A DNA stretch of 64,000 bases from NCBI GenBank assembly GCA_004299235.1, contig SCQL01000028.1, positions 248,001 to 312,000 of the forward strand, read 5' to 3'. The first letter of the stretch is position 1. Each line of letters begins with the position of its first letter. The notes beneath the pieces were generated by a model that was given only the letters and a program-made list of their open reading frames with translations, did no database searches and had not been told where the DNA came from. The stretch comes from a bacterium. GTDB taxonomy: Bacteria; Chloroflexota; Dormibacteria; Dormibacterales; Dormibacteraceae. Positions 194 to 22,288 of this stretch are shown here, piece after piece. Made by a program: the position numbers and the translations under genes.

Positions 194-1879
194 GTGGCTG
201 ACGGAGCGGGGATGCCGCGCTCGCGTCAGGCGGACCAGAGCCGCGCCCGCGGCTGGCTCAGGGCCGCTCTGCCCGGCCTTGCGCTCGTCGCCTTCGCCGT
301 CATGCTCGTCGTCCTTTTCGGCTTCCTGGACGCCATCCATTACCACTCGATCAAGGACTTCTTCTACCCGGATCCCACGGCCGCGGCCGGAACGCTCGGA
401 CTGGTCGGCAGCGCCGAGGGTGTGACCCTCTCCATCGTCATCGTCTCGGTCGTCTTCGGCATCCAGACCACCTCCTCGCGGTATTCGCCGCGCATCATCG
501 GCATCTTCATCCGCAACCCGCTGAACGCCCTGGTGCTCAGCTTCGCGCTGGCCTCGATCCTCTACACGTTCCTCGTTCGCTCAGAGGTCAAGGTCGACTA
601 CGTGCCCCTGTGGAGCGTCGCCGCCGCCGAGGTCTTCGCCCTCGTCAACTTCGCCATCCTGCTGCCCTACGTCGGCTACGTCTTCGAGGTGATGCGCGCC
701 GAGACCCTGGTGAGCAGCATCATGAGGCGCGCCCGTCGCAAGCTGCGAGGTTCGGTCAACAGCCCGCACAGCCGCCGTCGCCGCACCGAGCTGATGACGT
801 CCATCGCCCAGGTGACGGACATCGCCTTCGGCTCGATCCAGCTCGGTGACATGCCGGTCTGCGTGCTGAGCATCGAGGTGCTCGGCAAGTTCCTCGCCGA
901 GGACTACCTCACCGTCAAGAAGGACTTTCCGGCGGACTGGTTCCAGGTGGGCCATGCGGAGCTGCCCGGATCGTCCGACCAGATCCTGGCCGAGGTGAAC
1001 CGCGCCGGGACCTGGTTCGCCTACACGGTGATGTCCAGCTTCGTCGACATGGTCGGGCTGACACCCGTGCATCGCAAGGAGGCCGTGCACGCCATCGCCG
1101 TCGCCACCCGCAGCGCCGGCCTGGCCGCCATTCGGGCCGGCGATGCAGAAACGGCGGAGCTCTGCATGCGCTTCTTCAACACCTACCTGCGCGCGGCGAT
1201 CAACCAGTCGGCGCCCCGGTTCGCCTCGACGATCATGAACGAGTACCGCAGGTTCGCCATCGGCGCGCTCGAAGCGCGCCCGGACCTGGCCGTCGAAGCC
1301 GCGGCCCATCTGCTCCGCTACGGCCGGCACTTCGACGAGGCTGGGATGCCGGCCACGTTCGGAGCCGCGGCCGAGGATGTCGCCGACCTGGCCATCGAGG
1401 CCAGGGCGCGCGACCCCGAGGTCTCTCATCGCCTGGCCCTCCTGCTCGTCAGGAATCTCCTGGAGCTGATCCCAAACGCGCGCCCGATCGGCCTCAACGG
1501 GCTGTTCAAGGGTGTCGCCAAGCTCACCTTCTGGGCCATGGCCGCCGAGCAAAAGGACATCGCGCGCATCCTGATCGAGGGCATCGCGGCCGCACCGCCC
1601 GACTTCGTCGACGCGGCGTTGGACCGCATGGAGTCGATGCGGAACGGGCTCTTCTGGGAGGTCAACGAGCGCGTGATCTCATTCGACTGGGTGGAGGAGC
1701 CGCTTCGCGTCGAGATCCCCCGGCTGCGTGCGGCGCTGCGCCGGGCCAAGGCTTCCGGGCACGGCCTGGCGATCGAGCTGGAGGCGGAGCCCGCGGTTCC
1801 CCAGGACCTGGTCAAGCCGGGGCCGCGCGGCGTCCCGACGCCCACCGCGGCGCCGGCTAGCGCCGAGCCGGCTGGTTGA
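194..1879 (+). CDS. DUF2254-family predicted membrane protein
   Basis: The 561-residue protein has about four hydrophobic segments in its first 170 residues (about 25-47, 75-95, 108-128, 138-165). It has the DUF2254-like stretch with SSRYSPRIIGIF just after the second segment, then a long soluble helical C-terminal domain. Function of the family is unknown. The start is GTG 194; an in-frame ATG at 212 (residue 7) is an alternative. A TAGGAT hexamer at 159-164 could be the -10 element. The last 23 bp overlap the 3' end of the convergent truncated-haemoglobin gene. The proline/alanine-rich tail after residue 530 is probably disordered. Confidence 0.75.
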   Translation: MADGAGMPRSRQADQSRARGWLRAALPGLALVAFAVMLVVLFGFLDAIHYHSIKDFFYPDPTAAAGTLGLVGSAEGVTLSIVIVSVVFGIQTTSSRYSPRIIGIFIRNPLNALVLSFALASILYTFLVRSEVKVDYVPLWSVAAAEVFALVNFAILLPYVGYVFEVMRAETLVSSIMRRARRKLRGSVNSPHSRRRRTELMTSIAQVTDIAFGSIQLGDMPVCVLSIEVLGKFLAEDYLTVKKDFPADWFQVGHAELPGSSDQILAEVNRAGTWFAYTVMSSFVDMVGLTPVHRKEAVHAIAVATRSAGLAAIRAGDAETAELCMRFFNTYLRAAINQSAPRFASTIMNEYRRFAIGALEARPDLAVEAAAHLLRYGRHFDEAGMPATFGAAAEDVADLAIEARARDPEVSHRLALLLVRNLLELIPNARPIGLNGLFKGVAKLTFWAMAAEQKDIARILIEGIAAAPPDFVDAALDRMESMRNGLFWEVNERVISFDWVEEPLRVEIPRLRAALRRAKASGHGLAIELEAEPAVPQDLVKPGPRGVPTPTAAPASAEPAG

Positions 1880-20449: not shown

Positions 20450-20551
20450 ATGGGGAGGATACCCGCTCGCGAAGAGGCTCTGTCTGCACGCCACTAACCC
20501 GCGCGCTGCTTTTTGGCATCGGCATCCATACCCGCCGCCGGCCTGATGCCC

Positions 20552-20557
20552 TAGGCT
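20552..20557 (+). promoter_or_regulatory. -10 element of the cimA leader transcript
   Basis: TAGGCT (TANNNT type) ends 9 nt before the ATG of the leader peptide. There is no ribosome-binding site in between, so the leader peptide is probably translated from a leaderless 5' end. No clear -35 is visible. Confidence 0.5.
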
Positions 20558-20566
20558 TTTTCCGTA

Positions 20567-20623
20567 ATGCCCAACAGGCGCTCAATCGCGATCGAGATTA
20601 GCTGGGGAGGTCCCCCGACTTAG
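20567..20623 (+). CDS. Isoleucine-rich leader peptide of cimA (18 aa)
   Basis: ATG 20567 to TAG 20621-20623 encodes MPNRRSIAIEISWGGPPT. Three of five consecutive residues (7, 9, 11) are Ile, using codons at 20585, 20591 and 20597. cimA, downstream, makes citramalate for isoleucine synthesis, so the control codons match the pathway product. The last six codons (20603-20620) form the 5' arm of an antiterminator, so a ribosome reaching the stop codon would cover it. This is the layout of classical ribosome-mediated attenuation. Confidence 0.7.
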   Translation: MPNRRSIAIEISWGGPPT

Positions 20624-20680
20624 CGCACGCCGCTGATGTCGTCGGACCTCCCGGCCAGGAAAGGGTCGGGAGGTTTTTTT
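20605..20680 (+). terminator. Attenuator: antiterminator / intrinsic terminator pair before cimA
   Basis: Terminator: an 11-bp stem (20646-20656 with 20664-20674, one G-U) and a 7-nt loop, ending in a run of seven T (20674-20680). Antiterminator: 20605-20613 (GGGAGGTCC) pairs perfectly with 20644-20652 (GGACCTCCC), plus 3 more pairs (20617-20619 with 20641-20643), and takes the left arm of the terminator. The right arm also contains GGGAGG (20668-20673), the only good ribosome site for cimA ATG 20681, so the hairpin would block translation as well as transcription. Confidence 0.8.
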
Positions 20681-22288
20681 ATGTCCAGCCAAGCCACAGC
20701 CAGAAGAAGCTCGGAAGCAAGACGGCGGATCGTCGTGTACGACACGACCCTGCGCGACGGTGCGCAGGGTCCGGCCGTGTCTTTCTCAGCCGGCGACAAG
20801 TTGCGGATCGCCCGCACGCTCGACCAGCTCGGGTTCGACTACGTCGAGGGCGGCTTCCCCGGCTCCAACCCTAAGGATGAGGAGCTGTTCGCCGGCCTGG
20901 CGGCCCGTCCCCTGAAGCGCGCCCGCCTGGCCGCCTTCGGCGCCACCCGGCGGGCCGGCGGCCGCTGCGAGGACGACGCCAATCTCGGCGCGCTCGTCCG
21001 CAGCGGCGCCCCGGTCTGGACGCTCGTCGGCAAGAGCGATGCCTGGCAGGTGAGCACCGTGCTCCAGACGACGACGAGCGAGAACCTGGCGATGGTCGAG
21101 GAGTCGGTGGCCTATGGGGCCGGCCTCGGCCGTGAGCTGATCTTTGACGCCGAGCACTTCTTCGACGGATTCGCCCGGGACGCCGAGTACGCCATCGAGG
21201 TCTGCCTGGCGGCCGCCCGCGCCGGCGCGGCGTGGGTGGTCCTCTGCGATACCAACGGCGGCAGCCTGCCGGCCGAGATCGGGCGTGGCGTCGAGGCGGT
21301 GGTCGATGCCCTTCGCCGGCTCGACCGGCCCGTGCGGGTGGGCATCCACTGCCACAACGACTGCGAGCTCGCGGTCGCCAACACGCTGGAGGGTGTCAAG
21401 GCCGGAGCGGACATGGTCCAGGGCACGATCAACGGCTACGGTGAACGCTGCGGCAACGCCAACCTGGTTTCCGTGGTCGCCAACCTCGTCCTCAAGCTCG
21501 GGCTGGAGGCCCTGCCGCCGCAGTCGCTGAGCAAGTTCAGCGACCTGTCCCGGACGGTGGCGGAGATAGCCAACCTTGCGCTGCCACTCCAGCAGCCCTT
21601 CGTCGGGCACGGCGCTTTCGCCCACAAGGGAGGGCAGCACGTGGCGGCGGTGCTGCGCCATCAGGACTCCTACCAGCACATCGCACCGGGCGCGGTGGGC
21701 AACGAGCCGCGAGTCCTGGTGTCCGAGCTGTCCGGTCGGGGCAACGTCCTCGCCAAGGCACGCGAGTTCGGGTTGGAGCTCGACCGCGACGACCCCCAGA
21801 CCCGGTCGCTCGTCCAGCATCTGAAGGAGCTGGAGCACCGCGGTTACTCGTACGAGGCGGCGGATGCATCGTTTGAGATGCTCGTGCGGCGACTGCAGCC
21901 TGGCTACACGGCGCCCTGGACCGTGGCCGACTTCACGACGCAGGTGCGCAAGAACGGCGGGTCCGTGAATGCCGAGGCGACGGTCAAGGTGGAGGTCGAC
22001 GGCACGGTTTACCACACGGCCGCGTCCGGCAACGGTCCGGTCAACGCGCTGGACGCCGCCCTCCGAAAGGCTCTCAGCCCGCGGTTTCCAGGCCTGCGCG
22101 CGGTGAGCCTGCATGACTACAAGGTCCGCATCCTCGACGGCGACACGGGGACGGCGGCGACGACGCGAGTGCTGGTCGAGTCAGGCAAAGGGCTCAAGCG
22201 CTGGACCACGGTCGGGTGTTCGAGCAACATCATCGAGGCTTCGCTGCTCGCCCTGATCGACTCGCTGGAGTATGCGCAGTACGCCTGA
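20681..22288 (+). CDS. cimA: (R)-citramalate synthase
   Basis: 535 residues from ATG 20681. Starting at upstream ATG 20636 would run through the terminator and is rejected. Motifs: IVVYDTTLRDGAQGP (metal and 2-oxoacid site), VEGGFPGSNPKDEE, CDTNGGSLP, GIHCHNDCELAVANTLEG (HxHN metal site), and a C-terminal LeuA-type regulatory domain (KVEVDGTVYHTAASGNGPVNALD). The GGFPGSNPKD and HQDSYQHIAPGAVGNEPRV elements are those of CimA rather than LeuA. The enzyme joins pyruvate and acetyl-CoA to citramalate, a threonine-independent entry to isoleucine; the C-terminal domain usually mediates feedback by Ile or Leu. Confidence 0.9.
   Translation: MSSQATARRSSEARRRIVVYDTTLRDGAQGPAVSFSAGDKLRIARTLDQLGFDYVEGGFPGSNPKDEELFAGLAARPLKRARLAAFGATRRAGGRCEDDANLGALVRSGAPVWTLVGKSDAWQVSTVLQTTTSENLAMVEESVAYGAGLGRELIFDAEHFFDGFARDAEYAIEVCLAAARAGAAWVVLCDTNGGSLPAEIGRGVEAVVDALRRLDRPVRVGIHCHNDCELAVANTLEGVKAGADMVQGTINGYGERCGNANLVSVVANLVLKLGLEALPPQSLSKFSDLSRTVAEIANLALPLQQPFVGHGAFAHKGGQHVAAVLRHQDSYQHIAPGAVGNEPRVLVSELSGRGNVLAKAREFGLELDRDDPQTRSLVQHLKELEHRGYSYEAADASFEMLVRRLQPGYTAPWTVADFTTQVRKNGGSVNAEATVKVEVDGTVYHTAASGNGPVNALDAALRKALSPRFPGLRAVSLHDYKVRILDGDTGTAATTRVLVESGKGLKRWTTVGCSSNIIEASLLALIDSLEYAQYA

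Follow-up and report, generated by a model that had tools for sequence, protein, structure and literature searches.

The closest described counterparts of the leader reported here are attenuators of Actinobacteria. The ilvBNC leader of Corynebacterium glutamicum (ilvL; ilvB-II motif; PMC10272879, PMC11857589) likewise combines a short leader ORF with competition between an antiterminator and a terminator. Its transcript begins a single base away from the leader start codon (PMC11857589), which makes the leader leaderless, as is likely at the locus described below. In contrast to that locus, it serves acetolactate synthase in another phylum and carries mixed Ile, Val and Leu codons, and an additional 150 nt or so before the structural gene keep the terminator arm apart from the ribosome site of that gene. 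The ilvB1NC leader of Mycobacterium tuberculosis (PMC13236596) is alike in logic: it has LVVI codons, and a ribosome at the stop codon masks the antiterminator so that the terminator forms, but it is 166 nt long and precedes another gene. Leader peptides with terminators are also described before trp, ilvB and leuS in Actinobacteria (PMC1262725), where in the LEU element a run of leader codons pairs with the leuA ribosome site; this element, however, is a proposed pseudoknot before leuA, and no cimA case is included (PMC1262725). T-box leaders (RF00230) read tRNA charge as well, but bind the tRNA directly, have a conserved structure of about 220 nt and lack a leader peptide. Among open PMC papers, none was found to describe an attenuator or leader peptide for cimA.

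We analysed the region upstream of cimA in the window, i.e., the whole 64,000-nt stretch of DNA under study. The sequence features point to a genuine leader-peptide attenuator, a classical type of switch; its novelty appears to lie in the gene (cimA) and the lineage, in a one-piece design with the ribosome site at its end, and in a frame common to genes with different sensing codons.

Distribution of the element in the host's family

The protein encoded downstream of the leader scores well above the isopropylmalate synthase models with TIGR00977 (Table 1). The earlier note had proposed that control codon and product agree, as citramalate synthase belongs to isoleucine synthesis, and this agreement extends to the 29 of 29 family members with an Ile leader. 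Close CimA orthologues (77–89% identity) were found in many genomes of the host's family (f1) by a protein search of 61 genomes, and the element precedes cimA in all 22 loci with a readable upstream region. R1, a covariance model built on the 3' portion of the element and trained on cimA leaders only, matched 29 of 42 family genomes at E < 1e-18, and the seven further leaders that were read out are all at cimA. Every family genome with an assembled cimA 5' end (29/29) has the leader, the two hairpins, the T tract and the ribosome site, which argues that the element is not a product of chance. Family genomes without the element showed no full cimA orthologue in the protein search, except for genomes with a 3' fragment only or outside that search (G025, G065). 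The leader of the soil MAG Chloroflexi bacterium CF_54 (L031) is the same as that of G008. Within the host genome, R1 detected the cimA site (and its antisense strand) and no further copy at E 0.1; pattern GGAGGTTTTTNNNATG had no match there, an uninformative result because the pattern asks for one base more than the real GGAGG-T7-ATG spacing. Outside the host's family, R1 matched 15 genomes of a sister (second) family within the class, with E values of 5e-5 to 2e-11 and never at cimA.

Table 1. Features of the cimA leader in the window and of related or functionally comparable leaders at other loci.
Feature	Location	Strand	Evidence or remark
-10-like box TAGGCT, 9 nt 5' of leader ATG	20552..20557	+	TANNNT spacing in relatives
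Leader ORF, MPNRRSIAIEISWGGPPT followed by stop	20567..20623	+	homologous ORFs in 29/29 family members
Control codons Ile-Ala-Ile-Glu-Ile (ATC GCG ATC GAG ATT)	20585..20599	+	conserved Ile positions in relatives
Possible small local hairpin GGGG/CCCC (anti-antiterminator)	20604..20616	+	most relatives, absent in L017
Antiterminator 5' arm GGGAGGTCC, within last leader codons (9 bp with 3' arm)	20605..20613	+	folding; covariation in pooled alignment
Inner antiterminator stems around leader stop codon	20616..20641 (20616-20619/20638-20641, 20620-20625/20631-20636)	+	folding; covariation across families
Antiterminator 3' arm GGACCTCCC, with CCTCCC doubling as terminator 5' arm	20644..20652	+	folding; pooled alignment
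Terminator hairpin, 10 bp	20647..20673 (20647-20656 with 20664-20673)	+	folding; covariation in pooled alignment
GGGAGG, cimA ribosome-binding site within terminator 3' arm	20668..20673	+	GGAGG invariant in 22 aligned relatives
T7 tract, ends at cimA start codon	20674..20680	+	invariant in 22 aligned relatives
cimA, citramalate synthase	20681..22288	+	TIGR00977, 638.5 bits (cut-off 450)
Met-coded attenuator frame before second threonine synthase gene (sister family)	L145, L147-L156, L176-L178; e.g. L152 about 270-390		R1 match
Same frame before small subunit-like ORF (ilvN) and acetolactate synthase (ilvB), Ile/Val leader MCSTRIRGIVGPGGSRT	L146/L158, G039:C16:37093		
Host ilvB leader with Val/Leu/Ile codons (VVLLGLLGLIGLV; MVGSARDFVVLLGLLGLIGLVQSGARAT) and terminator	L141 1339-1424 / L159		separate from the cimA leader
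T-boxes before cimA, other Chloroflexota	L044 2697-2945, L091 2686-2945, L095 2635-2939		
Ile-rich leader (MSAGLIASPNSIIIRIIAGISISIIRYMETLAVGRE) before cimA, uncultured Anaerolineae MAG	L062 2711-2890		sequence unrelated to the host's leader

Competing hairpins and the cimA ribosome site

The antiterminator folds with -31.5 kcal/mol (z -6.0) and the terminator, folded alone, with -20.1 kcal/mol (z -3.9); the whole leader has a z of -2.96, and none of 200 shuffles was as stable. Both structures are mutually exclusive, as the strand 20647-20652 is common to them. The 11-bp terminator stem with T7 that had been described before the cimA ATG is present, with ten pairs including one G-U, or eleven when A20646-U20674 is counted. 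For the antiterminator, a structure of 9+3 bp had been proposed, of which the 9-bp stem stands, whereas the inner stems exceed 3 bp and include the stop codon. Judging by its occurrence among relatives (Table 1), the local GGGG/CCCC hairpin is possibly an optional part.

Covariance of both stems had been suggested as a check. Within the host's family alone the stems hardly covary and the key arms are invariant, because GGGAGG/CCTCCC/GGGAGG is common to antiterminator, terminator, ribosome site and Gly-Gly codons. After pooling of the cimA leaders with the leaders of the sister family, both stems covary, and the score was reached by none of 500 shuffles. Exchanges in the pooled alignment include C-G to U-A at two positions of the antiterminator as well as C-G to G-C and G-C to A-U in its inner stem; 18 cells of the antiterminator are changed on both sides, and 98.6% of antiterminator and 96.7% of terminator cells are paired.

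The GGGAGG that forms the terminator 3' arm was correctly recognized as the ribosome site of cimA, whose ATG at 20681 lies 7 nt 3' of it and directly after T7. Because ribosome site and terminator arm coincide, a second, translational lock on cimA is a reasonable reading of this arrangement. Such a lock might even be the entire device, with a hairpin that hides the ribosome site, a leader ribosome that opens the hairpin, and termination at T7 that is secondary or absent. A lock needs what is seen in the relatives, namely GGGAGG as terminator 3' arm and an ATG directly after the T tract. It does not need T7, however, and the unbroken T7 behind the 10-bp, GC-rich stem is invariant (Table 1) and a T tract is retained in the sister family too, which makes purely translational attenuation improbable compared with transcription attenuation.

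Leader ORF and control codons

The 18-codon ORF with Ile-Ala-Ile-Glu-Ile that the earlier note had recognized starts with the ATG at 20567, ends with the TAG at 20621-20623 and is conserved throughout the family. Its Ile codons at 20585 (ATC), 20591 (ATC) and 20597 (ATT) are 21, 15 and 9 nt 5' of the GGAGG of the antiterminator arm. Counted from this GGAGG, 29/29 leaders have Ile at -9, 27/29 have it at -15 and 25/29 at -21, numbers that derive from related genomes and thus represent non-independent trials. Ile accounts for 83 of 391 codons (21%) in 22 leaders as compared to 2.4% in CimA, and the cimA leader is devoid of Val and Leu codons. Family leaders show synonymous ATC/ATT exchange at Ile positions -21 and -27, differ in length by whole codons (17 to 29 aa) and drift in their non-Ile residues (MRNRIAIGIEISRGGPPT, MRKQPTIIGIVISRGGSPT, MFKQIGIIKIARGGFPT). 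Relatives that keep the hairpin and lose the ORF or its Ile codons were searched for and not found in the family, every relative retaining hairpin, ORF and at least three Ile codons.

A plain terminator or ribosome-site hairpin next to a fortuitous, untranslated short ORF would explain the ORF tail GG-x-x-T-stop, which is forced by RNA pairing within the family. Such an arrangement would not be expected to fix Ile at three positions upstream of the pairing region along with synonymous codon exchange and whole-codon length changes, or to place Met at -9 and -15 in 14 of 14 sister-family leaders (such as MSTPSSITMMMRRGGFRT and MLTPRVVLATMIMPRGGFRT), and is very improbable. A translated leader fits these patterns, and its translation is likely leaderless, because a Shine-Dalgarno sequence upstream of the ORF is absent in all 29 family leaders examined and a TANNNT box lies 7-10 nt 5' of the leader start in 26/29 relatives (1.1 expected). 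Two of the three exceptions have the box one base further away (L006, L124).

Three further observations concern the leader and its promoter. The last control codon (window 20597-20599) is ATT in 28/29 leaders, while cimA itself uses ATC twelve times, ATA once and ATT not at all; this preference may reflect a rare-codon effect or an RNA constraint. Two leaders from different genera, L010 and L139, are each lengthened in frame by about 30 bases of similar sequence (CGCCGGGCGCGCGCAGGGCGC), placed after the first Ile codons and ahead of the antiterminator arm; this insert may be a small repeat. Family cimA promoters have a conserved stretch ATTTGG...CCATRC (window 20508-20532) about 35-55 bases 5' of the presumed start, possibly an operator or an unusual -35 element.

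Ribosome position and proposed mechanism

Nascent-RNA folding was modelled for 29 Ile leaders and 15 sister-family leaders at the point where the middle strand is made and the last arm is not, with everything up to the ribosome front (+13 from the A-site codon) hidden. The mean probability of the antiterminator was 0.98-1.0 for A-site codons at least 15 nt 5' of GGAGG, remaining at 0.93 or above for ribosome fronts of +11 to +17, and was 0 at the stop codon. For the A-site codon 9 nt 5' of GGAGG it ranged from 0.94 to 0, depending on the footprint. The effective Ile codons would be the first and the second, since on the third the ribosome already reaches into the antiterminator arm. Full-length equilibrium folding with masked ribosome positions was tried and set aside as non-discriminating, since the terminator usually wins even with the ribosome at Ile codons, also in the window RNA. 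This preference implies that the switch must act kinetically, as in other attenuators. Understood as a kinetic decision, the geometry suggested by the earlier note, in which a ribosome waiting at the first two Ile codons frees 20605-20613 and one at the stop codon covers it, agrees with the masked nascent folding. In untranslated leader RNA the antiterminator would form according to folding, and repression would hence depend on efficient leader translation.

Direct sensing of isoleucine through a leader-binding RNA or protein (riboswitch-like, or T-box) is hardly credible even though a T-box precedes cimA in distant Chloroflexota, given that the window leader has no Rfam match at gathering score (with the limit raised to E 1, it matches an unrelated sRNA, E 0.34, and nothing else), that no T-box (RF00230) was found in the window by the same search that detects T-boxes before other cimA genes, and that the leader, only about 114 nt long, consists nearly entirely of the ORF and two hairpins.

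The cimA leader very probably acts as a ribosome-mediated transcription attenuator of cimA, with charged tRNA-Ile as the signal. RNA polymerase would start at or next to the leader ATG, and a ribosome would load on the leaderless 5' end and follow the polymerase. With ample Ile-tRNA, the ribosome would arrive at the stop codon and cover the antiterminator 5' arm; no antiterminator would form, CCTCCC would pair with GGGAGG, and transcription would end in T7, just 5' of cimA. With scarce Ile-tRNA, the ribosome would wait at the first or second Ile codon and leave this arm free, the antiterminator would form before the terminator 3' arm is made, and the polymerase would read on. In the read-through RNA the GGGAGG ribosome site would be unpaired, allowing cimA translation. 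We infer transcription start, termination, isoleucine response and the added translational effect from these sequence features.

Other control of cimA and branched-chain genes

The ilvB gene of the host has a leader of its own (Table 1), which is probably leaderless too; the host genome uses mixed codons for the shared enzyme (ilvB) and Ile only for cimA. T-boxes precede cimA in other Chloroflexota with scores of 93 (L044), 83 (L091) and 84 bits (L095), the latter two being below the gathering score. The cimA leader of the Anaerolineae MAG has an antiterminator (GGTTGGGAGA/TCTCCCAACC) that is opposed to a terminator (CCCACCGG/CCGGTGGG). No real DNA relatives of this leader were found in 400 genomes of the phylum; the single match, 26 nt inside a coding gene, was rejected. 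Several genomes of the second family have cimA directly 3' of the end of another gene (leuB-like), without a leader. By sequence, several devices of unrelated kind would couple cimA to the charging of tRNA-Ile, namely leader peptides of at least two designs and T-boxes.

Outside these groups, a Planctomycetaceae MAG (L101 2800-2970) has a possible branched-chain leader ending in VVLIRVVIR, then a terminator and cimA, and a Deltaproteobacteria MAG (L094 2798-2975) has an Ile-rich small ORF (TSIINTIIIIM) and a terminator before cimA.

The same frame before other genes

At twelve sister-family loci the ORF behind the leader was read as well. Ten encode a threonine synthase N-terminus (two of the ten checked by model, NF006050/TIGR00260), one (L149) encodes a protein that looks like threonine synthase if TTG is taken as the start codon, and the twelfth differs; at L176-L178 the leader alone was read. 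Two full thrC genes occur in four of the sister-family genomes that were checked (G047, G055, G089, G041), one of the two with the Met-coded leader. The host genome has two thrC genes as well, the second without such a leader. A search of 11 genomes from either family found no MetX (best score 31 bits), and Cys/Met-metabolism PLP enzymes are present. We regard a Met-controlled ThrC paralogue that would work in methionine synthesis as a lead; Met control of a plain threonine synthase would be hard to explain. The frame at the acetolactate synthase genes of G039 carries Ile/Val codons; the small subunit there has no NCBIfam model match and was named ilvN by position and resemblance.

Common to these loci are the leader tail GG-x-x-T-stop, the antiterminator and a terminator in which one arm doubles as the gene's ribosome site. 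This hairpin frame may be one inherited module in which sensing codons and target gene would have been exchanged (Ile/cimA in the host's family, Met/second thrC-like in the sister family, Ile/Val/ilvN-ilvB in one genome). The doubling of ribosome site and terminator arm forces much of the sequence that the two families have in common, which bears on the choice between inheritance and convergence.

Weak R1 matches in G013 (rplJ, 24 bits), G245 and G132 (28-29 bits) were rejected as terminators or attenuators of other kinds that do not clearly represent this element. The rplJ leader (L140, G013:C147:5304-5381) has the layout seen at cimA, one terminator arm serving as ribosome site with the ATG immediately behind it. 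The G245 leader with MPRFFWGYYYFTF (L174 219-360), from another member of the phylum, is an aromatic leader, MPRFFWGYYYFTFSRHPGGLGMA, before a gene resembling DAHP synthase. The G132 leader (L175 200-370), likewise from elsewhere in the phylum, is Phe-rich (MRLFFFLPAPP...) and has a terminator.

Implications

With the cimA leader, a lineage that has seen hardly any experimental work provides an attenuator that is compact, complete and strongly conserved, and the switch should express cimA only under isoleucine shortage. As the amino acid that a gene serves can be predicted from its sensing codons, the frame could be used to assign pathway roles, and its Met-coded version before the second thrC is a hint on the role of that enzyme. 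If the frame is indeed one inherited module, the Met codons predict that the second ThrC paralogue functions in methionine, not threonine, synthesis.
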